Origin: Pontibacter burrus
GTDB taxonomy: Bacteria > Bacteroidota > Bacteroidia > Cytophagales > Hymenobacteraceae
Assembly: GCF_010686685.1 (NCBI RefSeq)
Contig: NZ_JAAGWD010000006.1
Location: 186,001-250,000 of the forward strand
Direction: 5' to 3'
DNA length: 64,000 bases
Part shown: positions 27,021 to 42,921 of the stretch, piece after piece
Numbering within the stretch: the stretch's first letter is position 1
How the letters are laid out: each line of letters opens with the position of its first letter
Program-made: the position numbers and the translations under genes
Notes under the pieces: generated by a model
What the model was told of the DNA's origin: nothing
Databases searched by the model: none
Seen by the model: the letters and a program-made list of their open reading frames with translations, nothing else

Positions 27021-27241
27021 CCGCTGAACCTATTCACAGACATACTGTTCTGAACAATGGACGGTGCTGGTAACTATAGTTTATAATGCGAAGCGCTCAG
27101 ACGAAGCTTTAAACTATAGTTCTACACGCTCCTATCAAACTATAAAACAAACTTTCTGCTTCTGTTTTTCAAGGCTTTATATCTGTAAAGCCTATAGTTC
27201 AGTTTTTATAATACACATTATTGCAATCAAAGTTAGTGCGA

Positions 27242-30200
27242 ATGGAATCAGTAGATGAGTTGGTTTTACTGCAGCAGCAGCTGAAGCAAGAGAAGGAAGC
27301 CCGTAATGCCGCTGAAAAGCAGCTAAAGGAAGTAACTCAGGAACTGAACCTACTCAAACAGCATGCGGATCATCTACAGGAGTCAACCCCAGCAGGCGTA
27401 AGTGCTGCTGAATTTCAGCAGGAATTCCCCGATCCTATCTTTAGACTGGATTTTGAAGGTAATATACTTTTCATCAATGCTTCCGGAGAACAGTTGCTGG
27501 ACCTTATACCTAAAAAACGCAGGTGGTTGTTAAGCAAACTGCTTTTAAAGAAAACTGAACGAACCCGCAGGTTTGGCACACCGCAAAGCCTGAAGAGTAA
27601 TATACTTGGTAAACACTACACCTTGTTTATAGTACCTTTTGAGGCAAAGGGCTACGCCAATATATACTTCAGCAACATTACCGAACGTCGTGAAGCAGAA
27701 CTGGCCCTGAGAGAAAGTCGCAATTTTGTACGCAATATTGCCCGTACTATTCCAAACATCATCTATATCTACGACCTTGACCTGGACCGTTGCATTTATG
27801 TTAACGATCACCTGAATACTGTTTTAGGCTATTCTGAGTCTGATGTAGCCGCAATGGGTGGCCACGTGTTGATGTCGCTGATTGTGCCGGAAGAGCTGCC
27901 TAAAATGTACCACCATATCTATGATATTATTCAGGCAACCGATGGCGAGATAAGAGAGGTCGAGTACCTGGTTAAAGACAAGAACGGACAACTGAAAAAC
28001 CTGCTCTGCCGCGAGAGTGTGTTTAAGCGAAAAGATAACGGCCAGGTTTTACAGGTAATTGGCTCAGCAGAAGATGTTACCCAGTTACGTAGCAAAGCTA
28101 ACGAACTCAAAGCCCAGAAGGATTTTTACGAATCTATTTTCAATAATCTGCCTTCCGATATTGCCGTTTATGATGCTGATCTGCGCTATACGTTTGTGAA
28201 CCCAGTCGCTGTCGCAGATCCTGAACATCGTAAGTTCATTATCGGCAAAACAAATATAGAATACGCCCGTTACCGCAACGTGCCACATGAGCGGTTGATG
28301 AACCGCGAAATGAACCTTGAGCTAGCCAAAGTTGGCAAGAGGCCTGTTCAGTTCGAAGAAAAACTGACATCTCCGGAAGGAGGAGAAAAGTATTTTCTGC
28401 GCAAGCTAAATCCTGTACTGGACCAGAATGGTAACCTGAAAATGATTATCGGGCATGGACTGAACATTACTGAACTCAAAAAAGCGCAGGAAGAAATTTC
28501 GCAGAGCGAAAGTAAGAACCGGGCTATATTGGCAGCTATTCCAGACCTGATGTTTATCATCAATAAAGAAGGTATTTACCTGGATATGATGAATGTAGAG
28601 CAGGAGCATTTATTGATCCCTAAAAACCAGGTGATCGGGAAACATATCTGCGAAATTATGCCGCCTGAGGTAAGCCAGCCTATTTCAGAGCTTATAGTTA
28701 ACGTAATACAGAATGGCCAGCCGGAGCGTATAGAATACAACCTTGAGCTGGAAGCCGGTATCCGGTATTACGAGGGCCGTATTATTAAATATAACAGCAA
28801 CGAAGTACTGGCCATTATCCGCGATACAACAGAGGAGCGCAATGCCAGTTTGGAAGCTAAAGAGAAAAACGAGTTTATAAAGCAGGTGATGGACCTTAGC
28901 CCAAGCCTTATTTATGTTAAAGACGGTAAAGGTAATTTTAAGCTGGCTAACCAGGAGTTGGCAAAGCTTATGGGCAAGTCTGAAACTGAAATCCTGAATC
29001 GCTGCCAGAGTGAGCTGATACCACATGCAGCTGAGTCGACTTACTTTTCAACTATAGACAGGCAGGTAATAACAGAAAGGCGTGAAATAACCGCCGAAGA
29101 GAAATATACAAAATCAGATGGCACTGTTGTATGGTTTAGAACAACAAAACGTCCGCTTATAACCAGTAATGGCGAAGTACATGTTTTGGGTATCTCAACA
29201 GACATAACTGCCCAGCGACAGGCCAGCAAAATGCTGGAAGAAAGCGAAGAAATGCACCGCCTGTTGTCTGAAAACTCAAAGGATGTGATATGCCTGCACG
29301 AGTTGGACGGCCGCTACAAGTATATCTCGAAAAGTGTGGAAGATATGCTGGGCTATACCACAGACGAGGTAGTAGGTAACTTACCACAGGCCATCATCTA
29401 TCCTGAGGACATTCATAAGCTTTACAATGCCTTGGAGCAGGTTAAGCAAGGTGCCAAATATGTAACTATAGAACACAGGGTGCTCCACAAGAACGGAGGC
29501 TTTGTGTGGGTAGAAACACAACTAAAACCTGTACTGGATGCAGACGGAAATGTGATCAGAATCCAGTCATCGGCCCGTGATATTAGTACACGCCGTAAAA
29601 ACGCAGAAGCGCTCAGAAACAGTGAGAAGAAATACCGCGACCTGATAAACTATAGCCAGGCCTTTATCTGTACACATACAATGGTCGGAGAAGTGCTTTC
29701 TGTTAACCCGTACCTGATGAATTTGCTTGGCTATCCGGAGGAACAAATTGTAGGCAGAAAGCTGCAAACCTTCTTCTCTCCTATTTACCGACGAAACTTT
29801 CATAAATACATTGCCCGGTTTGAGTATGCTAATCTTGTGGATGGTGTACTATGTATCCTGGATAAAGATAAGGAAGAGCGTTACCTGTACTATCAGAATT
29901 CCAAAGTAGTGGAGCCGGGCATGGCACCTTATATCATATGCATTGCACAGGATATAACAGACCGGATGAACGCTGAAAAGGAGCTGAAAAAAGCAAAAGA
30001 GGCAGCCGAAGAATCGGCCCGGGTAAAAGAAAATTTCCTGGCTAACATGAGCCATGAGATCCGTACACCAATGAACGGCATTCTAGGCATGGCTGGCCTG
30101 CTGTTTAAAACGGACTTGAATGACACACAGAGCAATTACCTAAAAATCATTCGTCAGTCGGCTGAGAACCTGCTTGTTGTGATAAATGATATTCTGGATA

Positions 30201-31534
30201 TTGCTAAAATTGAAGCAGGCAAAATGGAGGTGGAACAGATACCGTTTAACCTGGAAGAGATCATCCGAACTGCATACCAGACTCTTACCTATAAGGCTGA
30301 AGAAAAGGAGATTGCCTATACACTGGAACCGCTTAAGCTGGCGCATCCGATTCTTGTTGGTGACCCCTACCGCCTGCACCAAGTATTACTGAACCTGCTT
30401 AACAATGCTATTAAGTTTACAGACGAGGGTGGTGTTACACTCCGCTGTATTGTAAAAAAAGAAACAGCAGAAGAGCTAACTATAGAAATTACCGTTACCG
30501 ATACCGGCATCGGAATTCCGCAAGACAAGCTGAACCTTATCTTTGATGGCTTTACCCAGGCTTACTCCAGCATTACGCGCAAATATGGCGGAAGCGGCCT
30601 TGGCCTGAGCATCTGCAAAAGCCTGATTGAAATGCAGCATGGCAACATCTGGGTTACAAGTGAGCTTGGCACAGGCAGCACTTTCGGCTTCTCAATAACC
30701 TACTTGAAAGCTGCTGAGCAGGAACTACCGGATGCAAATGGCTCAACTATAGACTATGAGGCACTGGACAAGCTGCGCGTGTTAATTGCTGAAGATAACG
30801 AGATCAACATATTCCTGGCTCAGGCTATACTGGAAGGCTGGAAATTCAAGGTTGATGTTGCTCGTAATGGCCGCGAAGCTGTAGAAATGGCCTTAGATAA
30901 TACTTATGACATCATCCTGATGGATATACAGATGCCGGAGCTGAGCGGAATTGATGCTACACAACTAATCCGTGCTAATCCGGATGCGCAGAAAGGGGCA
31001 ATCCCGATTATAGCGCTTACTGCCAATGCCCTGAAAGGCGATGCAGATAAATACCTGAGCGCCGGCATGAACGACTATATTTCCAAACCTTTTGATGAAG
31101 AGTTACTGTATCAGAAGCTTATGACCCTGTTGCCTCATAAGTTAAAGGCGCTATCAGGTCCAAGACAAGTGAAACCAGTTGAAGTAAAGCTAACCGATCC
31201 CCTATACAACCTGGAGATGCTGCATAAAATGTCTCGCGGGAACCAGGCATTTATTAACCGCACAGTCGAGTTATTTATAAGTACAGCCCCGCAAACTATA
31301 GCTGAGCTGCAAGAGGCAGTTCAGCAACAGGACTGGCAAATGGTAAGCAGTACAGCGCATAAGCTTAAGTCAACTATAGATACACTAAAAATAGAGCAGT
31401 TAAAACAGGTAGTGCGTCAGGTGGAATCAGATGCTAAAAACCTGGTAAATACGGATGGAATTCAGAGCCTTGTATACTACATAGATGAGCACATACAGCT
31501 TGTAATCAAAGAGATTGCTAAGGAAATAAAATAG
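27242..31534 (+). CDS. multi-PAS hybrid sensor histidine kinase with receiver and HPt domains
   Basis: 1430 residues from the ATG at 27242; the frame opens 7 codons earlier at a TTG. N-terminal coiled coil (about 1-45), then about seven consecutive PAS/PAC modules up to about 915 (recurrent patterns such as VLGYSESDV, MLGYTTDEV, LLGYPEEQI and IQSSARDIS). HisKA follows with MSHEIRTPMNGILGMAG (His near 936), then HATPase (LLNNAIKFTD, DTGIGIPQDK, GGSGLGLSICK), a receiver (VLIAEDNEIN; Asp near 1226 in ILMDIQMPE), and an HPt with TAHKLKST (His near 1371). No membrane helix is evident, so it is probably a cytosolic sensor. The built-in His-Asp-His relay needs an external final receiver; the upstream NtrC-type regulator is a candidate. 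Confidence 0.94.
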   Translation: MESVDELVLLQQQLKQEKEARNAAEKQLKEVTQELNLLKQHADHLQESTPAGVSAAEFQQEFPDPIFRLDFEGNILFINASGEQLLDLIPKKRRWLLSKLLLKKTERTRRFGTPQSLKSNILGKHYTLFIVPFEAKGYANIYFSNITERREAELALRESRNFVRNIARTIPNIIYIYDLDLDRCIYVNDHLNTVLGYSESDVAAMGGHVLMSLIVPEELPKMYHHIYDIIQATDGEIREVEYLVKDKNGQLKNLLCRESVFKRKDNGQVLQVIGSAEDVTQLRSKANELKAQKDFYESIFNNLPSDIAVYDADLRYTFVNPVAVADPEHRKFIIGKTNIEYARYRNVPHERLMNREMNLELAKVGKRPVQFEEKLTSPEGGEKYFLRKLNPVLDQNGNLKMIIGHGLNITELKKAQEEISQSESKNRAILAAIPDLMFIINKEGIYLDMMNVEQEHLLIPKNQVIGKHICEIMPPEVSQPISELIVNVIQNGQPERIEYNLELEAGIRYYEGRIIKYNSNEVLAIIRDTTEERNASLEAKEKNEFIKQVMDLSPSLIYVKDGKGNFKLANQELAKLMGKSETEILNRCQSELIPHAAESTYFSTIDRQVITERREITAEEKYTKSDGTVVWFRTTKRPLITSNGEVHVLGISTDITAQRQASKMLEESEEMHRLLSENSKDVICLHELDGRYKYISKSVEDMLGYTTDEVVGNLPQAIIYPEDIHKLYNALEQVKQGAKYVTIEHRVLHKNGGFVWVETQLKPVLDADGNVIRIQSSARDISTRRKNAEALRNSEKKYRDLINYSQAFICTHTMVGEVLSVNPYLMNLLGYPEEQIVGRKLQTFFSPIYRRNFHKYIARFEYANLVDGVLCILDKDKEERYLYYQNSKVVEPGMAPYIICIAQDITDRMNAEKELKKAKEAAEESARVKENFLANMSHEIRTPMNGILGMAGLLFKTDLNDTQSNYLKIIRQSAENLLVVINDILDIAKIEAGKMEVEQIPFNLEEIIRTAYQTLTYKAEEKEIAYTLEPLKLAHPILVGDPYRLHQVLLNLLNNAIKFTDEGGVTLRCIVKKETAEELTIEITVTDTGIGIPQDKLNLIFDGFTQAYSSITRKYGGSGLGLSICKSLIEMQHGNIWVTSELGTGSTFGFSITYLKAAEQELPDANGSTIDYEALDKLRVLIAEDNEINIFLAQAILEGWKFKVDVARNGREAVEMALDNTYDIILMDIQMPELSGIDATQLIRANPDAQKGAIPIIALTANALKGDADKYLSAGMNDYISKPFDEELLYQKLMTLLPHKLKALSGPRQVKPVEVKLTDPLYNLEMLHKMSRGNQAFINRTVELFISTAPQTIAELQEAVQQQDWQMVSSTAHKLKSTIDTLKIEQLKQVVRQVESDAKNLVNTDGIQSLVYYIDEHIQLVIKEIAKEIK

Positions 31535-31973: not shown

Positions 31974-32160
31974 ATTAAGATCGGTTTAAAACTATGCTAA
32001 AACTATAAGGGATTTCCGGTTTATGATAATAGTAAAGTTTAGCATGCTGCTAACTATAGTTCCGTACAGAATGTAACTATTGTTAAGACCAATGGAAGCC
32101 AAACTATAGCTAACTCAAACTTATAGATAACTATAGTTGAGCAATGCCTTTCGAATGATG

Positions 32161-32225
32161 TAAATGTAGATAGGGTAAAGCTTGTGTACACTGAGCGCTG
32201 TCACCGGATCCGGTGACTTATGTCA
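32161..32225 (-). promoter_or_regulatory. FNR-like dyad pair and -7 element facing the CNBD gene
   Basis: Boxes TGAGCGCTGTCA (32192-32203) and TGACTTATGTCA (32214-32225), 22 bp apart start to start. Plus-strand TAAATGTA (32161-32168, 7 of 8 to the reversed -7 consensus) sits exactly 24 bp below the proximal box. Same geometry as upstream of ccoG, ccoNO and ccoI. The distal box overlaps an 18-bp perfect palindrome. Confidence 0.65.
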
Positions 32226-32237
32226 GTTTAGAAACGC

Positions 32238-32269
32238 CAAAAGCTATAGTTGTGCAACTATAGCTTTTG
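32238..32269 (-). terminator. perfect 15-bp inverted repeat downstream of the TauE/SafE gene
   Basis: CAAAAGCTATAGTTG, a 2-nt centre (TG), then CAACTATAGCTTTTG. Each arm contains one CTATAG motif. Position 26 bp after the TauE/SafE stop suggests a terminator, but the T-tract after it is weak, so another role is possible. Confidence 0.55.
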
Positions 32270-32294
32270 AGTGCTGCTTAATAAAAAAAGAAGT

Positions 32295-33029
32295 CTATTC
32301 TGCAGTTGCCACCGTGCCAGGCTTGGTACAACAGCTCATTTCAGTTTTGTGACTGGCAGTTTCTACGACTTTTGGACTTAGATACGGGATACCTAAGCCT
32401 AATCCTCGAACTATAAAAAGCATAGCCAATACCATTCCAACATAAGGTACAGCTCTGTTAAACATACTGCGCATTTTCAGGCTGATCAGCTTACCTGATA
32501 GCGAAACCAGGAACATAAGCGGGAAAGTGCCCAGCCCGAAAAGTGTCATGTACAGCATGGCACCCTCTATACCCGGCGCGCTGATAGCTCCGGCCAGGGC
32601 GATGTATACAAAGCCGCAAGGGAGCAAGCCGTTCAGTACTCCAACCATAAACAGGGAGCCAGTTGAGTTTTTCTGAAAATAGTAACCCAGTTTCTTTCTA
32701 ACCCAGGTCATCAATTTATCGGTACCAAGTAAACTGGCCGACTTACCTTTTATAGCAGCAGGCAATACAAGTAAAAGCAGAATCAGCACACCAGAGATAA
32801 TCGATACTGTCTGCTGCAATCCAGCCAGTTGAAGTGACTCACCAAAAGCGCCAGCCAGTGCCCCAAGCAGTGCGTATGTTACAATTCTGCCAACATTGTA
32901 CAGGAGCCGGCCGGCATAATATTGCCAGCCGGAACTCCCGACAAAGGGTAGTGACATCGCGATTGGGCCGCACATCCCGACACAATGGAAACTACCTAAA
33001 AGCCCGAAAAGAAAACCAGCCCAGATCAT
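32295..33029 (-). CDS. sulfite exporter TauE/SafE family membrane protein (cbb3-cluster type)
   Basis: 244 residues with about six membrane helices. N-terminal GFLFGLLGSFHCVGMCGPIA (residues 5-24) is the signature of the TauE/SafE branch (DsbD-like fold) found beside ccoG/ccoH in cbb3 operons, where it is thought to help oxidase maturation, possibly copper or electron transfer. Later NGLLPCGFVYIALAGA near 130 carries a second conserved Cys. The soluble tail has MSCCTKPG, a possible metal-binding motif. Starts 2 bp after the ccoH stop, so it is translated from the same mRNA. Confidence 0.88.
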   Translation of the reverse strand: MIWAGFLFGLLGSFHCVGMCGPIAMSLPFVGSSGWQYYAGRLLYNVGRIVTYALLGALAGAFGESLQLAGLQQTVSIISGVLILLLLVLPAAIKGKSASLLGTDKLMTWVRKKLGYYFQKNSTGSLFMVGVLNGLLPCGFVYIALAGAISAPGIEGAMLYMTLFGLGTFPLMFLVSLSGKLISLKMRSMFNRAVPYVGMVLAMLFIVRGLGLGIPYLSPKVVETASHKTEMSCCTKPGTVATAE

Positions 33030-33031
33030 GC

Positions 33032-33502
33032 TTACTTCAGTTGTATGGTTTTCTCAGTGTAATAATCTTCGTTGTTTGCGCTAAACTTAACACGCACCTT
33101 CCAAAGGCCGCTCTCCAGGTCTCCTACTTCCAGTAACTGGCTTTGGTCACGGCCCAACTGTAGCGGTATCTGCTTATCCAGTTTGTCGTCAGACGGACGG
33201 AACAGTGTTACGGTACCTGTAACATTCATGCCTTGATAAGTAGCAGGCAGTTGCAGTAAGATAGATTTTTCTTCTGCTCTATAGTTTAGCATCACATCTC
33301 CGAGTGCCTGCGTGCGGCGCACGCGCTCAATCTGATCCTGATACTTAATCTCCTGCTCATAATAGTCCTTGCTTACCAGGTCTACATCCTGGTTCATGGC
33401 CTTGTACACGAACATGGCAATGTAAGCCATAAAGCATACCATACAGAAAACTATAGCATATGGCCAAAGCGTAAATGATTTATTTTTTTGTGCGGTTTTC
33501 AT
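33032..33502 (-). CDS. ccoH: FixH/CcoH-type cbb3 oxidase assembly protein
   Basis: 156 residues. One N-terminal membrane helix (LWPYAIVFCMVCFMAYIAMFVY, residues 12-33), then DLVSKDYYEQEIKYQDQI, which is the recognisable FixH stretch, and a periplasmic beta-rich domain (GTVTLFRPSDDKLDKQIPL). In other bacteria CcoH binds and stabilises CcoP-CcoNO assembly. Lies between ccoG (38 bp) and the TauE/SafE gene (2 bp), as usual in Bacteroidota cbb3 clusters. Confidence 0.9.
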   Translation of the reverse strand: MKTAQKNKSFTLWPYAIVFCMVCFMAYIAMFVYKAMNQDVDLVSKDYYEQEIKYQDQIERVRRTQALGDVMLNYRAEEKSILLQLPATYQGMNVTGTVTLFRPSDDKLDKQIPLQLGRDQSQLLEVGDLESGLWKVRVKFSANNEDYYTEKTIQLK

Positions 33503-33540
33503 GTCAATTCTTTATTTATATTTTTTATTAAGTCTGAGGC

Positions 33541-34944
33541 TTATTTTCCTGGGCCTAAAAACTTGGTATCTGTTGTCGTAATCAGTTCGTCGCCATGATA
33601 CACCCCAATCTCAATCTCGGAATTCATACCATCCAGGTCTTTCTGAGCAATCTCGGTAAAGAACACGCCCTCTACAATGCCCTGTGCCGGAAGAGTAAGC
33701 TCCTTGCCCACTACTTTTATAGTTCCCTCTTTATCAACTAGCTTAAGGGTAAGTGGCATTTCGTGGTTTGTTTTATTAATGACCGAGATGTTATACAGGT
33801 TTTTGATATGCCCGTTCTCACTTTTCTGGTACAACTGGCCTGGTGTGCGAAGTATAGTTGCTTCAGCTTCGTCGCGTGTTAAGAGCAGTGCTGTCAGTGC
33901 CATAAGTACCAGGAACAAAACTGCGGTATAGCCCATCACGCGAGGTGTAAAAAAGGTCCATTTCTTACTGGTCTCGAGCGCCTCTTCCGATTCATAGCGA
34001 ATCAGGCCTTCCGGTTTACCGATCATGCGCATGATGTCGTTGCAGGCATCAATACAGGCGGTACAGTTAATGCATTCCAGCTGCTGTGCGCCGTTTCGGA
34101 TATCGATGCCGGTTGGGCAAACCTGCACACACTGGTTACAATCAATACAGTCTCCTTCGGTGCGCTCCTGATTCTTGCGAAGCTTGCCGCGTGGTTCCCC
34201 ACGCGTATAGTCGTAGGCTACCACTACCGTTTTCTTATCCTGCATTACACCTTGCAGTCGTCCGTATGGGCAAACTATAGTACATACCTGCTCCCGGAAC
34301 CAGGCAAATACCCAGAAAAAGACGCCTGTAAACACAAGCAATGCACCAAAGCCTGCTGTATGTTCCAGTGGTCCATCCGTGATCACCTTCTGCAACTCAT
34401 CAACCCCGATCACATAAGCCAGGAACAGGTTTGAGATAAGGAAAGAGATGAGGAGGAAAATGGTGATTTTAGAACCTTTCTTCAGGATCTTCTCGGTATT
34501 CCAGGGCATCTTATCCAGTGCGCGCTGTTTTGTGTAATCGCCTTCTATAGCATATTCTATGCGCCGGAAAACCATTTCCAGGAAGATGGTTTGCGGGCAA
34601 ATCCAACCACAGAAAACACGGCCGTAAACAACTGTAAAAAGAATAATAAAAATGACCAGCGCCAGAAAAGCCAGCACCAGAATAAAAAAATCCTGTGGCC
34701 AGAACAGCACACCAAAGATCACGAACTTGCGCTCAACTACATTCAGCATGAGTAGCGGCAAACCATTGATCTTAATAAACGGCCCCGCAAACAGAAGCGC
34801 TAAAAGCAGGTAGCTTACATATTTGCGGTAGTTATATAATTTGCCTTTCGGCTTTTTCGGGTATACCCAAACGCGTTTACCCTCGGCATCTACAGTCGAG
34901 ATGTGGTCCCGAAATTCATCGGTTGGTTTTGATTTTGTTGCCAT
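33541..34944 (-). CDS. ccoG: cytochrome c oxidase accessory protein CcoG (FixG/RdxA)
   Basis: 467 residues. About five membrane helices. A first cysteine motif GRVFCGWICPQTIFLEM lies near 108-124, then CTIVCPYGRLQG near 221, and two 4Fe-4S ligand sets follow: CIDCNQCVQVCPTG near 269-282 and CINCTACIDACND near 290-302. The C-terminal part is the FixG immunoglobulin-like periplasmic domain. CcoG reduces copper(II) for CuB insertion into cbb3 oxidase (known in Rhodobacter). A dyad pair and -7-like element lie 125-190 bp upstream, giving it its own promoter within the cluster. Confidence 0.95.
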   Translation of the reverse strand: MATKSKPTDEFRDHISTVDAEGKRVWVYPKKPKGKLYNYRKYVSYLLLALLFAGPFIKINGLPLLMLNVVERKFVIFGVLFWPQDFFILVLAFLALVIFIILFTVVYGRVFCGWICPQTIFLEMVFRRIEYAIEGDYTKQRALDKMPWNTEKILKKGSKITIFLLISFLISNLFLAYVIGVDELQKVITDGPLEHTAGFGALLVFTGVFFWVFAWFREQVCTIVCPYGRLQGVMQDKKTVVVAYDYTRGEPRGKLRKNQERTEGDCIDCNQCVQVCPTGIDIRNGAQQLECINCTACIDACNDIMRMIGKPEGLIRYESEEALETSKKWTFFTPRVMGYTAVLFLVLMALTALLLTRDEAEATILRTPGQLYQKSENGHIKNLYNISVINKTNHEMPLTLKLVDKEGTIKVVGKELTLPAQGIVEGVFFTEIAQKDLDGMNSEIEIGVYHGDELITTTDTKFLGPGK

Positions 34945-35068
34945 GGCAGTGGTAATTTGTGCGGATATTATTCCTGCCTGATTTAATTATGAATAACTGA
35001 ATTTTGAATGAGTGAATTTGTAATGCATGAATAGCAGAAACTTCACCGATCATTCAAATTATCTGTTG

Positions 35069-35133
35069 CAAAATTCCTCAATCAACAGCTTTAAAAAGAT
35101 GACCTGGGTCATGTATTCAGGTGATTGTCATCA
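35069..35133 (-). promoter_or_regulatory. FNR-like dyad pair and -7-like element of the ccoG promoter
   Basis: Boxes TGACCTGGGTCA (35100-35111) and TGATTGTCATCA (35122-35133), 22 bp apart. Plus-strand CAAAATTC (35069-35076, 7 of 8 to CAAAnnTA) sits exactly 24 bp below the proximal box. The proximal box is preceded by AAAAAGA, as at ccoNO. Predicted transcription start is near 35064, about 120 nt before the ccoG ATG. Confidence 0.7.
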
Positions 35134-35229
35134 ACTATAGGTAAGAGCCATTAAAACAGAAAGAGCCACCAGTACTATAGTTCAGTACCGGCAGCTCATT
35201 CAGGTTTATCATAACAGGTTGTGTTCTAC

Positions 35230-36432
35230 TTACATCTTTTCGCCTTGAGGCTCTTTTGCATCAGCAGGATTTGTACCCTGCAGGCTCAGGATGTAGCTTG
35301 ATACTTCCAGCATCTGGTCTTTGGTAAGCTTACCTTGCCAAGGCACCATCCCTTTTGAAGGTACACCATATTTAACCGTCTTGAAGATTGCATTCACATC
35401 GCCGCCATGCAGCCAGTACTCATCCGTCAGGTTAGGTCCTACTGTTCCTTGGCCTTCTGCTCCGTGGCAGGCCGCACAGTTTGTGAGGTAAACAGACTTT
35501 CCTGATTCCAATGCCGCAGCGTCTGTTAAGACTTCGTAGTTAGTTACAGCATTCGGATCATCTGCATTTTTGGCAGCAAGCAGCGCAGCTTCCTGCATCT
35601 CCAGTTCATATTCTTCTGTCTGTAATGCTCCAGTTCCGAACACGTGGTAGTGCAACATATAAGCAACCGCAAAAACTATAGTTACATAGAACAGCGCTTT
35701 CCACCATGGTGGCAGGTCGTTGTCATACTCCTGAATACCATCGAAATCATGATTAGAATGGATGTGGTCTTTTGCTTTACCTGTTACCACAGTAGCATCG
35801 CCACGCAGCAGAAACAGCACACGCCCCGCAAAAGACGTTCTGAAATCTTCATCATAGATCGAGTCGCCCAGCATCGGGATGAACAGGCGGAACATCAGCA
35901 CCAGTACCAGGAGAGTAAGCAATATAATTACTGCTGCCAGACCAAAAGTAAATAGCAAGGCTGGTGGCAGATCCAGGAACGCTACTTCAGCGGGTGCAGC
36001 AGCTTCAGCCACAGCAGCCTGGTCGGTAGCAGGTACTTCAACTGCTGCTACAGATGCCTTGGTGCTTTCGTCTTTAATAAAGGCGATTACATTTTTTATA
36101 TCGTCTTCAGATAGCAAAGTTTTAAAAGCCGGCATTGGCATTTTATTAAACTTCTCGAACACTTCTATCGCATCTTTATCGCCGGATTGAACAAGCTCCT
36201 GTGAGTTTTGAATAAACTTCATCAGCCACTCGTCTCCGCGGCGTTCGTGCACATTTTTCAGGGCAGGACCAACTACATCAGCATCTATGCTATGGCAAAC
36301 AGCACAGTTTGCATCAAATATTACTTTACCGGCAACAGCATCCTGTGCCTGCACAGTCGGTGTTCCCATCAGCAGCAGACCAGCCGCCAGCGCCAGACTG
36401 CTTTTACCGAATATTTTTTTCAGAGAGATCAT
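35230..36432 (-). CDS. ccoP: cbb3-type cytochrome c oxidase subunit III (CcoP) with an extra N-terminal cytochrome c domain
   Basis: 400 residues. Signal-like N-terminus (SSLALAAGLLLMGTPTVQAQ), then a cytochrome c domain with CAVCH near 43-47 and methionines near 98-105. An Ala-rich linker leads to a membrane helix near 155-180, the CcoP_N part with FDGIQEYDNDLPPWWKALF near 235, a second helix (VTIVFAVAYMLHYHVFG), and a C-terminal cytochrome c with CAACHG near 325. Textbook CcoP has two c-type domains after the helix; here one is N-terminal. It receives electrons and passes them to CcoO. The start overlaps the ccoQ-like stop by 4 bp. Confidence 0.93.
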   Translation of the reverse strand: MISLKKIFGKSSLALAAGLLLMGTPTVQAQDAVAGKVIFDANCAVCHSIDADVVGPALKNVHERRGDEWLMKFIQNSQELVQSGDKDAIEVFEKFNKMPMPAFKTLLSEDDIKNVIAFIKDESTKASVAAVEVPATDQAAVAEAAAPAEVAFLDLPPALLFTFGLAAVIILLTLLVLVLMFRLFIPMLGDSIYDEDFRTSFAGRVLFLLRGDATVVTGKAKDHIHSNHDFDGIQEYDNDLPPWWKALFYVTIVFAVAYMLHYHVFGTGALQTEEYELEMQEAALLAAKNADDPNAVTNYEVLTDAAALESGKSVYLTNCAACHGAEGQGTVGPNLTDEYWLHGGDVNAIFKTVKYGVPSKGMVPWQGKLTKDQMLEVSSYILSLQGTNPADAKEPQGEKM

Positions 36433-36623
36433 TGTATTGCTCTTTCAAAGGTGGTGTCTTCTGTTTCCTCTTCGCATGCGAAGCTGCTCATTGCGGATAC
36501 ATACTTTTTGTCCATCAGGACCACATACACGATCAGGCCCAGGAAAAACAGGAAGAAGATACCAAACGAGATCAGCGGATATATTTCGATGCCATCTATG
36601 GCTTGCAAAACGTTCTTATACAT
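36429..36623 (-). CDS. ccoQ: CcoQ-like small membrane subunit of cbb3 oxidase
   Basis: 64 residues from the ATG at 36623 (MYKNVLQAIDGIEIYPLISF). The longer frame reading back to 36695 has no family-like sequence and covers a repeat-like intergenic stretch. One membrane helix (FGIFFLFFLGLIVYVVLM), then a short acidic cytoplasmic tail. Size, topology and place between ccoNO and ccoP identify it as the CcoQ/FixQ component, which stabilises the oxidase. Sequence conservation in this family is low, so the call leans on position. Confidence 0.8.
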   Translation of the reverse strand: MYKNVLQAIDGIEIYPLISFGIFFLFFLGLIVYVVLMDKKYVSAMSSFACEEETEDTTFERAIQ

Positions 36624-36711
36624 TGTCTTAGAATTTTTTTGACTTTGGGACAAAGGACAAAAGACCTGAGTATTATCTCCTTCGTCTTTTGTCACTCTGT
36701 CTTATGTCAGG

Positions 36712-38901
36712 TTATTCCTGTGTTTCTTTCACTTTAATATCAGTACCCAGGCGCTGCAGGTAGGCAATCAGAGCCACAATCTCAGCTTCTGGTTTAACCT
36801 CAATGCCTTCCTTAGCCAGCTGGCCGGTAATTTCATTGGCCTGCTTCATCAGCTCTTCGTTGGCATTGGCGATGTACTCATCTTCGTAAGGAACACCCAG
36901 TTTTTTCAGGGTTTCCAGTTTCGCCTGCGTTGTTCTCAGGTCAATTTCCTGCTCAAACAACCATGGATAAGCCGGCATAATAGAGCCTGGTGACATTGAC
37001 GTTGGATCAAGCATGTGGTGATAGTGCCAGCTGTGCGGGTACTTACCTCCCACTCTGTGCAGATCCGGACCGGTACGCTTAGAACCCCACAGGAAGTTGT
37101 GGTCATACACAAACTCACCTGCTTTTGAGTACTCGCCGTAGCGCTCTGTCTCAGACCTGAATGGCCGAACCATCTGCGTGTGACAGTTAACGCAACCTTC
37201 TTTTATGTACAGGTCACGGCCCTGCAGCTCCAGCGATGTATAAGGCTTCACACTTTCTATAGTTGGCACGTTAGATTTGATCACGAAAGCAGGGATGAAC
37301 TCTACCAGACCACCTATCAGAATCGCTACTGTAGCCCAGATAGCCATTTGAGTAGGGCGTTTCTCGATCCATGAGTGCCAGTGACCGGCGTTCATGCTCT
37401 GTGTTGGTACAATCACTGGTGCTTCGGTGCGCTCGTTAGCAACCAGGCTGCCAGCTTTCGCTGTCTTATACAGGTTGTAAACCATCAGGAACACGCCACC
37501 AAGGTAAAGTATACCACCGATACCACGCAGGTAGTACATTGGCACAATCTGTAGCACTGTCTCCAGGAAGTTAGAATACTGTAGTGTACCTTCTGCAGTG
37601 AACTGTTTCCACATCAGGCCTTGTGTAAAGCCAGCCCAGTACATTGGGATAGCATAGAAAAGGATGCCCAGTGTACCTAACCAGAAGTGCGTATTAGCAA
37701 GCTTTTTAGAGTATAGTTCTGTTTTATAGATACGTGGGAACAACCAGTAAAGCATCGCAAAAGTCAGGAAGCCGTTCCAGCCTAAGGCACCTACGTGCAC
37801 GTGTGCTACGATCCAGTCAGTAAAGTGGGCAATAGCGTTTACGTTTTTAAGCGACAGCATCGGGCCTTCGAACGTAGCCATACCATAAGCTGTAATAGCT
37901 ACCACCATGAACTTCAATACCGGCTCAACGCGAACCTTATCCCAGGCACCACGCAGTGTTAAAAGACCGTTGATCATACCACCCCAGCTTGGAGCGATCA
38001 GCATTACCGAGAATACCACACCCAGCGACTGAGCCCAGTCAGGTAAGGAAGTGTAAAGCAAGTGGTGCGGACCAGCCCAGATGTAAATAAAGATCAGGGA
38101 CCAGAAGTGAATGATAGATAAGCGGTAAGAATAAACCGGACGGTTAGCAGCCTTTGGCAGGAAGTAATACATCAGGCCCAGGAACGGTGTTGTTAAGAAG
38201 AACGCAACCGCGTTGTGGCCATACCACCACTGCACCAGCGCATCCTGCACACCTGCATAACCAGAGTAGCTCTTGAAGAAGTTAACCGGCAATGCATAAG
38301 AGTTTACGATGTGCAGTACTGCTACTGTAAGGAAAGTAGCGATGTAGAACCAGATAGCTACATACATGTGCTTCTCGCGACGACGTGCTATAGTTCCGAA
38401 CATATTCCATCCGAACACAACCCATATCAGCGTGATAGCTATATCGATAGGCCACTCCAGTTCAGCATATTCTTTAGATGAAGTCATCCCCAGCGGAAGC
38501 GTGATAACTGCTGCTACGATTATCAGCTGCCAGCCCCAGAAGTGTATCTTGCTGAGCTTGTCAGAGAACATGCGCGACTTACAAAGACGCTGAAGCGAAT
38601 AGTAAACACCCATAAAAATGGCGTTGCCCACAAACGCGAAAATCACGGCATTGGTGTGTAATGGTCTTACCCGACCAAATGTTGTGTACTGGTTGCCCAT
38701 GTTTACGTCAGGGTTAGCCAACTGAAAAGCGATAATTACGCCTATCAGCATACCGGCTACGCCCCAGAAAACAGTGGCTATACCAAAATCCCGAACGATC
38801 TTATTGTCATAAAAGAACGTGTCGGTCACGCCCCGGTCCGTACCTTTCGGCACAATCCTATCGGGCGCATTTTCTAAGACTTCAGCTACATTAGTTGACA
38901 T
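36712..38901 (-). CDS. ccoNO: fused cbb3 oxidase subunits I and II (CcoN-CcoO)
   Basis: 729 residues. Residues 1 to about 500 are the CcoN catalytic subunit: twelve or more membrane helices with many conserved His, such as LHTNAVIFAFVGNAIF near 81, WWYGHNAVAFFLTTP near 226, YIWAGPHHLLYTSLP near 275, and IVAHVHVGALGWNGF near 367. After a further helix the CcoO part begins near 560. It has the haem c motif CVNCHTQMVRPF near 588 and PGSIMPAYPWL with the Met ligand. It reduces O2 to water in the inner membrane. A Shine-Dalgarno-like GGAGGA lies about 9 nt before the ATG. Fused CcoNO is common in Bacteroidota. Confidence 0.96.
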   Translation of the reverse strand: MSTNVAEVLENAPDRIVPKGTDRGVTDTFFYDNKIVRDFGIATVFWGVAGMLIGVIIAFQLANPDVNMGNQYTTFGRVRPLHTNAVIFAFVGNAIFMGVYYSLQRLCKSRMFSDKLSKIHFWGWQLIIVAAVITLPLGMTSSKEYAELEWPIDIAITLIWVVFGWNMFGTIARRREKHMYVAIWFYIATFLTVAVLHIVNSYALPVNFFKSYSGYAGVQDALVQWWYGHNAVAFFLTTPFLGLMYYFLPKAANRPVYSYRLSIIHFWSLIFIYIWAGPHHLLYTSLPDWAQSLGVVFSVMLIAPSWGGMINGLLTLRGAWDKVRVEPVLKFMVVAITAYGMATFEGPMLSLKNVNAIAHFTDWIVAHVHVGALGWNGFLTFAMLYWLFPRIYKTELYSKKLANTHFWLGTLGILFYAIPMYWAGFTQGLMWKQFTAEGTLQYSNFLETVLQIVPMYYLRGIGGILYLGGVFLMVYNLYKTAKAGSLVANERTEAPVIVPTQSMNAGHWHSWIEKRPTQMAIWATVAILIGGLVEFIPAFVIKSNVPTIESVKPYTSLELQGRDLYIKEGCVNCHTQMVRPFRSETERYGEYSKAGEFVYDHNFLWGSKRTGPDLHRVGGKYPHSWHYHHMLDPTSMSPGSIMPAYPWLFEQEIDLRTTQAKLETLKKLGVPYEDEYIANANEELMKQANEITGQLAKEGIEVKPEAEIVALIAYLQRLGTDIKVKETQE

Positions 38902-38970
38902 GTGCGGTGTCCTCCGATGGTTTAAGTGTTGTATGTGTTTGATTTGTTTTTAGTCCTTGAACTATGGGTA

Positions 38971-39035
38971 CAAATTTCCGCAGGCGCAGGCCAGAAAAAG
39001 ATGACCTAAGTCAGTTCCGGAAATGATAGATATCA
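38971..39035 (-). promoter_or_regulatory. FNR-like dyad pair and -7-like element of the ccoNO promoter
   Basis: Boxes TGACCTAAGTCA (39002-39013) and TGATAGATATCA (39024-39035), 22 bp apart. Plus-strand CAAATTTC (38971-38978, 7 of 8 to CAAAnnTA) sits 24 bp below the proximal box. AAAAAGA precedes the proximal box, as at ccoG. Predicted transcript start is near 38966, about 65 nt before the ATG. Confidence 0.72.
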
Positions 39036-39158
39036 GCCAGGCGAGTTAGAGAAGGATGCGTTTAGGTGTTTAGGAGTGAACAAAACTATAGTTCAGAACC
39101 CTGCTTAACAGCTCTTATCCTTCTCATAATCAGCATCATTAAAATGTCACACTGACGC

Positions 39159-39344
39159 TTATGTGGCTATTTCCTCTTTCGGGCTTTTATTATCTTTTGC
39201 AGGTACCTCGTTATCGAAGAGCATTCTTACCGCAGGCGTATAGTCGTCGTCGTACTGGCCGGAGCGCACAGCCCACAGGAAAGCTCCCAGGAAAGCTGCT
39301 GCTACCGTTACACTCACTGCGATCATTAAAAAGATGATATACAT
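39159..39344 (-). CDS. ccoS: cbb3-type oxidase assembly protein CcoS
   Basis: 61 residues: one membrane helix (MYIIFLMIAVSVTVAAAFLG) followed by FLWAVRSGQYDDDYTPAVRM. The W-x-x-[RK]-S-G-Q-[YF]-D-D motif is the CcoS signature. Needed for haem b/CuB insertion into cbb3 oxidase in Rhodobacter. It lies downstream of the copper ATPase ccoI, separated by 135 bp containing short repeat-like sequence, and is likely transcribed with it. Confidence 0.95.
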   Translation of the reverse strand: MYIIFLMIAVSVTVAAAFLGAFLWAVRSGQYDDDYTPAVRMLFDNEVPAKDNKSPKEEIAT

Positions 39345-39479
39345 ATCAGTTAGAAAGTTTAGAAGTTAGAGAGTGACTTTAATGAATAGCAGGTAATGAT
39401 TAATGACTAACCTGTTTCATTTAGCCTTATTCGTCCACTATACATCATTCACTACTCATTCATCATTCATTATTAGACA

Positions 39480-41888
39480 TTACAATCCGGCTTTTCTGGC
39501 GGCGTACTTCACGGATAGTGTGGCGAATGTCATCACGCTAAGCGTACTGATCGGCATCAGGATAGCAGACACGATTGGTGTGAACAGCCCCATTACAGCC
39601 ATCGTTAAGCCAATCACGTTGTAAACCAGCGACACAGCAAAGGTCATCAGGATCAGCGTCATCGTTGTTTTGGAGAAGTTGAGAAAGTTGCTCAGCCTGT
39701 CGAAAGCGCTTGCATCCAGTATGGCGTCGCAGGATGGTGAGAAGTTGGTTACGCTGTTGCTCAGGGCAATACCTGCATCACTTTGCTTCAGGGCACCTGC
39801 ATCGTTCAGGCCATCGCCTACCATCAGCACCTGGCGGTTTTCCCGGGCTTTCAGCTGTTGTATGTATTCCAGCTTCTGCACCGGCGATTGATTGAAGTTG
39901 AGCTCCGCTTCTTTGCCGAGCAGCTCTCTCAGGCGTGCTTCCTCATGGTCGTTGTCGCCAGACAAAACGGCTATTTTCTTATCTCCCAGCCCCTGTAACA
40001 CTTGCTGTAGCCCATCGCGGTAAACGTTGTAGAAAGTATAGTAACCCAACACCACACCATCAATTGAGACATACACGGTAGTTTTGAGTGTATCCTTTTG
40101 CTTTTCGGCAGGAACACCCAGGTATGATGCAGATCCAACCCGAACCAACATGCCATTTACTTCGCCTACCAGCCCTTTTCCGGTAAACTCCTGAAAATCG
40201 GTAACTGGTAAGGCGCTACCACTTAAGCCCAGGCTGATGCGCTGGCTGAGCGGGTGTGTAGAGTGGCGCAACACAGACAATACAGCTTGTTTCTGGGCTG
40301 AGGTAAGTTCTTTACCAGTATAGGTAAGCTCTGCCTCACTTGGCTCGGTGAGTGTACCTGTTTTGTCAAAAACAACCGTATCTATTTTGGCAAGGCGCTC
40401 TACAACGCCTGTATTTTTGAGGTAGAACTTATTGCGTCCAAATACCCGCATGGTATGCCCATGCACAAATGGTGTAGCCAGCGACAGCGCACATGGGCAA
40501 GCGATGATCAGAACAGAAGTAAAGGCTCTCATGGCCATATCCATGTCGCGCGGCACCCAGTAAATAAGGGCTCCGGCTGCCACCATCATGGTAACTATAA
40601 TAAACCATTTACCGGCAATGTTTGAGTAAGTATGCAGGTACTGCTCCTCATTTTTGTTGAACACCGTATCGTTCCATAGTTGGGTCAGGTAACCTTGCGA
40701 TACTTCCTTCACCACTTCCAGCTCGATGCTCTCGCCTACCTGCCGGCCACCAGCATAGATCACCTCACCTACTACTTTTTCAACCGGCTCCGATTCACCT
40801 GAAACGAAACTATAGTCTATCAAAGCGCGGCCGTGCATCAGCATCGCATCAGCTGGGATAAGTTCCTGATTACGAATACGGATACGATCACCTACTTTAA
40901 GGTTTCGTACAGCTGTTGACGACTCTTCGCCATCTTCTTTCAGCACCGTTATAGAAACCGGAAAATAAGAGGTATAGTCGCGGTCAAAAGACAAACTATC
41001 GAAGGTGCGCTGCTGAAAATACTTGCCAATTAGCATGAAAAATACCAGCCCCGTAAACGAGTCGAGATAGCCAGGTCCGCGACCTGTTAAAATATCAAAG
41101 ATGGAAACAAAGAAGAGCGCCAGTAACCCCGTAGAGATAGGCAGGTCGATGTTGACCATGCGCTGCTTGATGCCCTCCCAGGCAGATGTGAAAAAGCCAC
41201 GGGCACTATAAAAGAATACAGGTATAGACAACAGAATGCTCAGGTAACCAAAGAAAGAGCCGAACGTGCGCTGCAAGCCCTGTGTAAAGTCCACGTAATC
41301 CGGGAAGGCCAGCAACATGACGTTACCAAATGCAAAGCCCGCAATACCCAGTTTATAGATGATGGTACGGCTAGGTTTGCTGGTCTTCTTGCCATCGGTG
41401 TTAGCCAAAGTAATTTCCGGCTCATAGCCAATGCGTGCCAGCAGCGTTACCACGTCGCGCAAGGTAGTTTTCTGAGGGAAATAAGTTAATGATACTTCCT
41501 TTCGCAGGAAATTAACTGTAGACTCAGAAATTCCAGGATTAATTTTGAATAGGTTCTCAAGCAGCCAGATACATGAGCTACAGTGCATTTGCGGTATGTA
41601 GAACGTGATCTTGGCGATGTTATCGCTCTTGAAGCTGATCAGCTGTGCTTCTACGCCGGCGTCGTCCAGATAAGCGAATCGGGCTTCGGCCACAGGCTTC
41701 TTGCCTGTAATTCCCGGGTTCTCTTCCAGGTTATAGTAATTGCAAAGATTATTCTCTTCTAAGAGCTCATAAACCGTTTTGCAGCCATCGCAGCAGAACG
41801 ACTTATCATGTGCTACAATCGGTTCGTCCTCGCAGGAGTCACCGCAATGGTAGCAGGTCTGAACATTGGTTTGGAGTGCGGCTTCCAT
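39480..41888 (-). CDS. ccoI: copper-translocating P-type ATPase of cbb3 assembly (CcoI/FixI)
   Basis: 802 residues from the ATG at 41888. A reading from an upstream TTG (41918) would overlap the promoter element. N-terminal metal-binding cysteine knuckle (CYHCGDSC and FCCDGC), HMA-like PQMHCSSCIWLLENLF near 98-113, eight membrane helices, and SFVSGESEPVEK (A domain). The copper channel motif CPCALSLATP lies near 462, the phosphorylation site DKTGTLTEP near 506, an HP motif in HSTHPLS, and GDGLNDAGAL near 685. CcoI exports copper for the CuB site of cbb3. It has its own dyad-pair promoter 28-92 bp upstream. Confidence 0.95.
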   Translation of the reverse strand: MEAALQTNVQTCYHCGDSCEDEPIVAHDKSFCCDGCKTVYELLEENNLCNYYNLEENPGITGKKPVAEARFAYLDDAGVEAQLISFKSDNIAKITFYIPQMHCSSCIWLLENLFKINPGISESTVNFLRKEVSLTYFPQKTTLRDVVTLLARIGYEPEITLANTDGKKTSKPSRTIIYKLGIAGFAFGNVMLLAFPDYVDFTQGLQRTFGSFFGYLSILLSIPVFFYSARGFFTSAWEGIKQRMVNIDLPISTGLLALFFVSIFDILTGRGPGYLDSFTGLVFFMLIGKYFQQRTFDSLSFDRDYTSYFPVSITVLKEDGEESSTAVRNLKVGDRIRIRNQELIPADAMLMHGRALIDYSFVSGESEPVEKVVGEVIYAGGRQVGESIELEVVKEVSQGYLTQLWNDTVFNKNEEQYLHTYSNIAGKWFIIVTMMVAAGALIYWVPRDMDMAMRAFTSVLIIACPCALSLATPFVHGHTMRVFGRNKFYLKNTGVVERLAKIDTVVFDKTGTLTEPSEAELTYTGKELTSAQKQAVLSVLRHSTHPLSQRISLGLSGSALPVTDFQEFTGKGLVGEVNGMLVRVGSASYLGVPAEKQKDTLKTTVYVSIDGVVLGYYTFYNVYRDGLQQVLQGLGDKKIAVLSGDNDHEEARLRELLGKEAELNFNQSPVQKLEYIQQLKARENRQVLMVGDGLNDAGALKQSDAGIALSNSVTNFSPSCDAILDASAFDRLSNFLNFSKTTMTLILMTFAVSLVYNVIGLTMAVMGLFTPIVSAILMPISTLSVMTFATLSVKYAARKAGL

Positions 41889-41915
41889 CTCAATTTTCCT
41901 TTTTATGGTTTGATG

Positions 41916-41980
41916 CAAAGGTAGATGGGCCGCAAGCCCTAAAGGATGATAACAGTCATTTTTGAAGCTGATAGATGTCA
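41916..41980 (-). promoter_or_regulatory. FNR-like dyad pair and -7 element of the ccoI promoter
   Basis: Boxes TGATAACAGTCA (41947-41958) and TGATAGATGTCA (41969-41980), 22 bp apart. Plus-strand CAAAGGTA (41916-41923) is a full match to the reversed TAnnTTTG and sits 24 bp below the proximal box. If transcription starts about 5 nt after the element, the proximal box is centred near -41.5, the class II activator position, and the distal one near -63.5. Confidence 0.75.
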
Positions 41981-42213: not shown

Positions 42214-42921
42214 TTAATCGTACAGGTGACAGATCTTAAATAACTTATCCGAATCAAGGATCGTGATGCTGCTGCCTTTGGTCATGATAATCTGCTCATC
42301 TTTAAACTCCGACAGCAGGCGAATCGTGGTTTCTTTGGCCGTACCAACTATAGATGCAAGGTCTTCGCGGGAAATAGAGATTGTAAACTTATCCTCTCCA
42401 TCTTGCTGCTGGTAAGTTTTCTGCAATAGCAATAGCGCTTCGGCCAGACGTTCACGAACCGGTTTATACGCCATCTGCACAACGCGCTCTTCCGCCTCCC
42501 CCAACGCACGAGAAAACAGCCTCATTAGCCCACTAGAAAAGTCGTTGTTTGTTGCGATCAGCTCCAGGAACTGCGATTTTGGTATAAAGCACACCACGGC
42601 ATCATCTAGGGCTATCGCCGAAGCAGAGTAGTTGCTGTCTGCCATCAGGGCGCGATACCCTACCACATCACCTGGCTTAGCTAAACGTACGATCTGCTCT
42701 TTGCCATCGCTACCCATTTTAGACACCTTTACCTTACCGGAACTCACACAATGCAAGCCGGAGGGGCGGGTGCCTTCATGAAAAATCACTTGCCCTTTTT
42801 TGAATGTAAAGCAAGACTTACTGGCACTTACATCTTCTAACTCATGGCCCTTGCAAGTGCCAAGCAATGAGTACTTGCGGGTCGGACAGCTCTGACAGTC
42901 TGGTGCTGAAAACTTGATCAT
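42214..42921 (-). CDS. FNR/CRP family transcriptional regulator with N-terminal cysteines
   Basis: 235 residues from the ATG at 42921; a GTG at 42957 is an alternative. The N-terminus has DCQSCPTRKYSLLGTC and a further Cys in SKSCFTF, matching the cysteine spacing expected of an oxygen-labile 4Fe-4S FNR-type sensor. cNMP-fold VIFHEGTRPSGLHCVSSGKV and LAKPGDVVGYRALM follow. The C-terminal helix-turn-helix has ISREDLASIVGTAKETTIRL, keeping Glu and Arg at the positions that read TGA half-sites in FNR (E-x-x-x-R). It probably controls the adjacent cbb3 genes through the TGA-N6-TCA dyads. Its own upstream region shows a TAAATGTA element but no dyad pair. Confidence 0.92.
   Translation of the reverse strand: MIKFSAPDCQSCPTRKYSLLGTCKGHELEDVSASKSCFTFKKGQVIFHEGTRPSGLHCVSSGKVKVSKMGSDGKEQIVRLAKPGDVVGYRALMADSNYSASAIALDDAVVCFIPKSQFLELIATNNDFSSGLMRLFSRALGEAEERVVQMAYKPVRERLAEALLLLQKTYQQQDGEDKFTISISREDLASIVGTAKETTIRLLSEFKDEQIIMTKGSSITILDSDKLFKICHLYD

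Follow-up and report, generated by a model that had tools for sequence, protein, structure and literature searches.

To our knowledge, oxygen control in Bacteroidota is little described by comparison with that in Proteobacteria, and the nearest known network to the one presented here is that of Rhizobium leguminosarum. In strain 3841 the hFixL-FxkR-FixK pathway and FnrN converge on anaeroboxes, according to the extract of PMC7888657 drawn on here. Tandem sites for a single activator are described in Escherichia coli, where class III promoters of FNR and CRP carry two of them 5' of the promoter (extracts of PMC11264516 and of PMC5957442, the latter describing CRP promoter classes I-III). Here we describe a promoter module that resembles both systems, found in a 64-kb stretch of DNA from Pontibacter burrus (the window, one part of the 4.31-Mb genome G000 in 29 contigs). 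It consists of two TGA-N6-TCA dyads 22 bp apart, that is with a gap of N10 and a length of 34 positions (the pair), followed after N23 by a TAnnTTTG-type element (the full module, a 65-mer), and it stands before genes of a cluster for the cbb3 oxidase, an enzyme that consumes oxygen with high affinity.

The likeness to the rhizobial network is that two inputs, one through a FixL-type PAS kinase and one through an FNR with cysteines, are predicted to share one motif before the cbb3 operons, there fixNOQP and fixGHIS. In the rhizobial case, as far as the same extract goes, the receiver protein and FixK are separate, and a single activating anaerobox near -33 serves each of fixNOQP and fixGHIS (PMC7888657); here one protein combines receiver and activator, and the sites are paired. 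The spacings of the E. coli tandems in the cited extracts either differ from ours (the -40.5/-93.5 type of yfiD, -40/-90 at deoC) or are engineered (PMC11264516, PMC5957442), whereas here a single 22-bp spacing recurs at several operons and in many genera together with a TAnnTTTG-type -7 element. No description of a Bacteroidota regulator joining a receiver to a CRP/FNR protein, or of the paired promoter, was found in open-licence PubMed Central papers, which is not proof of absence.

A preliminary description of this DNA had listed four pairs, before ccoI, ccoNO, ccoG and a small gene for a cyclic nucleotide-binding domain (CNBD), each with a TAnnTTTG-like element 24 bp below the proximal dyad. 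Every one of these pairs is an exact match, and at all four promoters the element follows the proximal dyad after a gap of N23 (Table 1). With one mismatch allowed, the window still holds these four matches, against 0.10 expected from 100 shuffles. In the whole genome the 34-mer occurs at six places, four of them in the window, and the reversed pattern, our control throughout, at none. When the gap between dyads is left free from N0 to N30, 11 pairs appear (control 4), of which six lie at N10, one at N11, 5' of hemA, and four elsewhere. The combination dyad-N23-TAnnTTTG gives nine sites and its control none; freeing this gap over the 31 values from N8 to N38 gives 32 matches, nine of them exactly at N23, and 29 in all for the control. 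A random genome-wide distribution had been named beforehand as grounds for abandoning the pattern; the distribution found is non-random (six against none), with N10 and N23 favoured, and the idea of a tandem FNR-type module set at a constant distance from a -7 element of Bacteroidota type is supported.

The nine dyad-N23-TAnnTTTG sites have a perfect second dyad at 22 bp in two cases and a five-of-six one in two more; the remaining five are single-site promoters. Such sites elsewhere in the genome (L012, L013, L015, L016, L017, L018) lie 5' of genes for CcmC-like, universal-stress-like, metallo-beta-lactamase/rhodanese, TauE-like and UPF0176/rhodanese proteins, the names CcmC and TauE coming from our reading of the sequence. 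Together these sites point to a likely wider regulon. The two pairs of the genome outside the window (L006, G000:C27:90317, and L001, G000:C23:182514) are found 5' of a proline dehydrogenase gene and 5' of a gene for a 125-residue protein without Pfam match, the latter gene being followed by a large open frame.

CcoNO of the window matches four Pontibacter contigs at 91-94%. Conservation was assessed in 50 Pontibacter members, 47 of which have ccoN. The cbb3 regions of the other 46 ccoN-bearing members were fetched, and the stretch 5' of each gene was taken irrespective of the pattern. A pair at N10 precedes ccoNO in 47/47 members, with both dyads kept, ccoI in 43/44 (in three more there was no gene or the stretch ran into a region edge) and ccoG in 42/47. 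The fourth pair, before the CNBD gene, is seen in 16 of the 43 members tested, 15 times at N10 and once at N11. Fixed positions of the dyads and of the -7 element stand out in the alignments against variable spacers and flanks, the opposite of the loss of dyads but not flanks that the preliminary description had set down as telling against it. Counted over genomes, at least one pair is present in 49 of the 50 members, with 273 pairs against 17 for the control. The three members without ccoN (G005, G016 and G020) have 0, 1 and 1 pairs (controls 0, 2 and 1), the 47 others between 2 and 10. One genus member, G035, has a ccoNO match with a single internal stop (G035:C1:538953-541133). The promoter module is real, conserved and better supported than in the preliminary description.

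Each promoter also retains its own form of the -7 element across the genus. That of ccoI reads TAnnTTTG in all 43 promoters with a pair, while those of ccoNO and ccoG deviate at the first base, which is G or C in 47/47 members for ccoNO and G in 42/42 promoters with a pair for ccoG. The fourth promoter has TAnnTTTA in 14 of 16 members with a pair. The weakened elements of ccoNO and ccoG may reflect a greater dependence on an activator.

The spacing extends well beyond the genus. Among 80 ccoN loci, the best of at least 594 and mostly from Bacteroidota with some from Ignavibacteria, Calditrichota and others, there are 72 pairs at N10, distributed over 41 loci, and seven at N11; every other gap from N0 to N40 gives at most three, and the control at N10 none. 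Pairs at N20-N22 are absent from the 80 loci, which argues that the distance itself is kept and not only the helical face, and disfavours a model in which any whole number of turns would serve. When 69 pairs are oriented solely by their nearest gene, a TAnnTTTG element matching in five or six of six positions lies at N23 on the gene side in 54 cases and on the other side in 12. Conversely, of 52 sites of the form dyad-N23-TAnnTTTG, 36 are accompanied by another perfect dyad at 22 bp, and at most two by one at 21 or 23 bp. Among the genes that the 72 pairs precede are ccoNO (23), ccoI (14), REC-HK-type kinases (5), hemN (4), ccoG (4) and universal stress genes (3). Some relatives (L060, L062, L096 and L127) show at least three dyads close to a single promoter. 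In 395 genomes drawn across the Bacteroidota phylum, the 65-mer is found in 30 and its reversed control in none.

The module shares two traits with known promoters: a TGA-N6-TCA dyad at a constant distance (N23) from a -7/-10 element, as in class II promoters of FNR/FixK type, and two sites of the same type that are both kept (47/47 ccoNO promoters), as in tandem, class III-like CRP/FNR promoters. In E. coli, direct contact with polymerase is made by a CRP or FNR dimer at -41.5, and a dimer further upstream can reach the alpha subunits; given the footprint of a dimer, two of them 22 bp apart would be neighbours. We consider it probable that the pairs are adjacent sites for FNR/FixK-type dimers that activate cbb3 at low oxygen, with two proteins, REC-FNR and Cys-FNR (both below), as readers. 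With start sites placed from the -7 element, a dimer on the proximal dyad would be centred near -41.5, where class II activators bind, and its distal neighbour near -63.5, one footprint upstream. When oxygen is low, both dimers would jointly bring RNA polymerase to promoters with weak elements of their own and so turn on the genes for the cbb3 oxidase and its assembly, as well as haem genes in some genomes. Low oxygen is put forward as the signal because of the FixL-type PAS domains, the cysteines and the target genes. The N10 gap, together with the absence of pairs at N20-N22, points to contact between the dimers or to a rigid double contact with polymerase.

The main reader is likely to be not only the FNR-type protein encoded next to the cluster but REC-FNR, encoded elsewhere in the genome (G000:C23:65357-66418) beside a probable oxygen-sensing kinase. 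REC-FNR has a complete receiver (Response_reg), cNMP_binding and HTH_Crp_2 in one protein, an architecture found in two proteins. Its Asp9, Asp52, Thr82 and Lys104, and the Glu316 and Arg320 of its recognition helix, are invariant in 18 aligned relatives. Searching the genus with the adjacent FNR-type protein gave a second, long match (41-50% identical to that protein, in an open frame of at least 353 residues) in 48 of the 50 members, including all 47 with ccoN. Besides G000, nine members have REC-FNR matches at 77-80%; that the fusion holds elsewhere in the genus is suggested by frame length. Among the members without ccoN, G005 has no REC-FNR match and G020 a fragment with an internal stop. 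REC-FNR would be a FixJ receiver and a FixK activator in one protein, receiving phosphate from a FixL-like PAS kinase.

In its gene row REC-FNR comes after that kinase, a receiver protein and a receiver-kinase, and is itself followed by a small gene, the N11 pair and hemA. Over some 126 aligned residues the PAS domain of the kinase matches Bradyrhizobium-type FixL (1dp6, E 1.1e-35), and like FixL the kinase has the HDxY and IIGIGR motifs (here IIGIGREV), whose His and Arg we take to have the same roles as in FixL, haem and oxygen being their presumed ligands. Unlike FixL, it has these motifs in two PAS domains and stands in a row with receiver and REC-CRP/FNR genes, not with FixJ. Since it scores below the NCBIfam FixL equivalog cut-off (337.5 against 850 bits), we call it FixL-like. 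The row recurs in genus members L191, L192, L193 and L199, adjoining the cbb3 cluster in the first three, and a pair lies between REC-FNR and hemA in L190 and L199. Beyond the genus, a kinase carrying this PAS motif is encoded next to ccoI and a pair in G207 and G113, with REC-FNR about 14-17 kb away on the same contig. PAS domains are also present in the kinase identified by its match to REC-HK at eight more ccoN loci, and REC-FNR, counted by an aligned length of 140, lies within 30 of the 80 loci.

The second candidate reader is the neighbouring FNR-type regulator, Cys-FNR, which matches FNR in the PDB (5cvr, E 5.9e-22). Like FNR of the E. coli type, it has an N-terminal cysteine pair, a further cysteine and the recognition-helix Glu and Arg, and one cysteine aligns with that of the PDB protein; its cysteine spacing differs from that of FNR, although in number the conserved cysteines would be enough for the four ligands of a cluster. 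The preliminary description was right that it keeps the Glu and Arg that read TGA half-sites, which holds for REC-FNR also. Because its score of 104 bits does not reach the 228 set by NCBIfam for Fnr, Cys-FNR is called FNR-like and not Fnr; judged from its cysteines, it is probably a direct iron-sulphur oxygen sensor. In G000 it would be a second reader of the sites.

REC-FNR was called at E up to 1e-60 in 56 of the 395 phylum genomes, with five candidates scored per genome, so that misses are possible. The 56 genomes hold 224 pairs, with at least one in 44 genomes (control 3), and the other 339 hold 173, with at least one in 108 (control 33), both control sums being counted by eye. Within genus g15 a pair is present in 7/7 genomes with REC-FNR and in 2/16 without it (p 1.5e-4). 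The link is also physical, since 11 of the 30 genomes with the 65-mer have it no more than 200 nucleotides 3' of the gene for REC-FNR.

Several observations weigh against the proposal that REC-FNR and Cys-FNR dimers activate cbb3 from these pairs. The five-candidate scoring limits the phylum counts, and the association of pair abundance with REC-FNR in the 395 genomes (Mann-Whitney p ~1e-18) is uncorrected for kinship. No N10 pair was seen at 39 of the 80 ccoN loci, including all eight from Sphingobacterium, no exact pair in 12 of the 56 REC-FNR genomes, and no pair between REC-FNR and hemA in L192 and L193. G016, a genome 87% complete, lacks ccoN yet keeps REC-FNR. Finally, seven of the 30 genomes with the 65-mer lack REC-FNR: six have a Cys-FNR orthologue (44-49% identity) and G100 has neither. 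REC-FNR is therefore not required, and the receiver was rejected as a prerequisite for pairs on account of the six Cys-FNR genomes. As lineages with Cys-FNR only and lineages with REC-FNR both carry pairs, two kinds of regulator accompany one site architecture.

This bears directly on the alternative that stands up best, in which the 22-bp spacing arises from phosphorylated REC-FNR dimers touching through their receivers and plain FNR lineages merely inherited it. The link between pairs and REC-FNR in the phylum and in g15, the invariant receiver residues and the empty N20-N22 gaps all agree with it, but N10 is kept in genomes with Cys-FNR only, and a structure model of the relative L096 (predicted template-modelling score, pTM, 0.40) leaves the placement of the receiver unfixed; we regard it as possible but rather doubtful. 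In REC-FNR, contacts between receivers may contribute, but they cannot fully explain the gap, which Cys-FNR lineages retain as well. In the same tentative spirit, one might picture in Bacteroidota and their relatives a FixL-FixJ-FixK-like circuit with receiver and activator fused, in which the 22-bp pairing would exist because adjacent REC-FNR dimers, when phosphorylated, make contact through their receivers and set a steep oxygen threshold, with Cys-FNR lineages later taking over the paired sites.

A second alternative follows the preliminary description, which had looked to the adjacent protein at 42214-42921: Cys-FNR alone would read the pairs, and REC-FNR would serve other promoters. The position of its gene beside the cluster, its FNR-type cysteines and recognition residues, the six pair-bearing genomes that have an orthologue and no REC-FNR, and the gene's adjoining a pair in G199, G432 and G369 speak for this, the protein of G369 lacking one N-terminal cysteine common to those of the other five. 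An orthologue at 67-100% identity was found, however, in only 27 of the 50 genus members in a search with the adjacent protein. Sorted by this result, the 47 ccoN-bearing members divide into 27 with and 20 without an orthologue, and their mean pair counts are alike (5.9 and 5.6), each of the 20 keeping at least two pairs; Cys-FNR was therefore rejected as sole reader. In g15, moreover, each of the 16 genomes that lack REC-FNR has a Cys-FNR-type match (36-41%), and only two of them have a pair. We judge this reading to be improbable, and the role proposed for the adjacent protein is not supported in its original form.

It is likewise unlikely that one dyad activates while its partner tempers or adjusts expression, in the manner of E. 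coli yfiD, to give a window of expression at intermediate oxygen. The cbb3 oxidases are microaerobic enzymes, and upstream FNR sites in E. coli near -85 to -95 can repress (as cited in an extract of PMC11264516), but the upstream site here, near -63.5, falls outside that range. A chance or compositional origin can be dismissed: dyads on their own are frequent, with 25 in the window, but the shuffle expectation for the window and the reversed-pattern controls for the genome, the 50 genus members and the 65-mer all fall far below the counts observed, and only dyad and -7 bases are conserved.

Table 1. Paired dyads, -7-like elements and genes of the cbb3 region in the window.
Feature	Position	Strand	Remarks
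Tandem dyad pair 5' of ccoI	41947..41980	-	exact match; proximal dyad 41947-41958, distal 41969-41980
Tandem dyad pair 5' of ccoNO	39002..39035	-	exact match; dyads from 39002 and 39024
Tandem dyad pair 5' of ccoG	35100..35133	-	exact match; dyads from 35100 and 35122
Tandem dyad pair 5' of small CNBD gene	32192..32225	-	exact match; dyads from 32192 and 32214
-7-like element TACCTTTG of ccoI	41916..41923	-	8/8 to TAnnTTTG; N23 from proximal dyad
-7-like element GAAATTTG of ccoNO	38971..38978	-	7/8 to TAnnTTTG; N23 from proximal dyad
-7-like element GAATTTTG of ccoG	35069..35076	-	7/8 to TAnnTTTG; N23 from proximal dyad
-7-like element TACATTTA of CNBD gene	32161..32168	-	7/8 to TAnnTTTG; N23 from proximal dyad
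Cys-FNR, FNR-type regulator with N-terminal cysteines; candidate reader	42214..42921	-	cNMP_binding + HTH_Crp_2
ccoI, copper-type P-type ATPase; start tentative	39480..41918	-	E1-E2_ATPase, HMA, ATPase-cat_bd
ccoNO, cbb3 oxidase subunits I + II fused	36712..38901	-	COX1, FixO
ccoP	35230..36432	-	Cytochrom_C, FixP_N
ccoG	33541..34944	-	Fer4_18, FixG_C
121-residue CNBD protein, no helix-turn-helix	31608..31973	-	cNMP_binding only

On the minus strand the genes follow in the order FNR-type gene, ccoI, ccoNO, ccoP, ccoG, ccoH, a DsbD_2-type gene and the small CNBD gene, whose start codon is separated from the end of its pair by 218 bp. The CNBD protein, which has a helix-like C-terminal end, has homologues in eight other genus members and is exactly 121 residues long in seven of the nine; it was seen in 9 of 47 genus regions, many of which end short of the gene. 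We would speculate that it could dimerise with an FNR-type protein and thereby block it. A hybrid sensor kinase of 1437 residues by open frame adjoins the cbb3 cluster on the opposite strand (27221-31534). The window also contains what looks like an over-represented palindrome, AACTATAGTT, with 22 copies against 0.12 expected from base composition (positions include 32052, 32129, 35674, 39084, 42043, 42194 and 43041); the 19 other palindromes of the same letters have at most one copy each.

A metatranscriptome study predicted, in the extract drawn on here, that CRP/FNR homologues of Ignavibacteria, Flavobacteriales and Saprospiraceae are carbon-sensing (PMC8510549). The loci described here suggest oxygen as the signal for some such homologues, as an alternative to that prediction. 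With the rule of a dyad pair at 22 bp, 23 nucleotides and TAnnTTTG, low-oxygen regulons may become readable from sequence in many genera, and the module points to two regulators and one kinase as candidates for their control.

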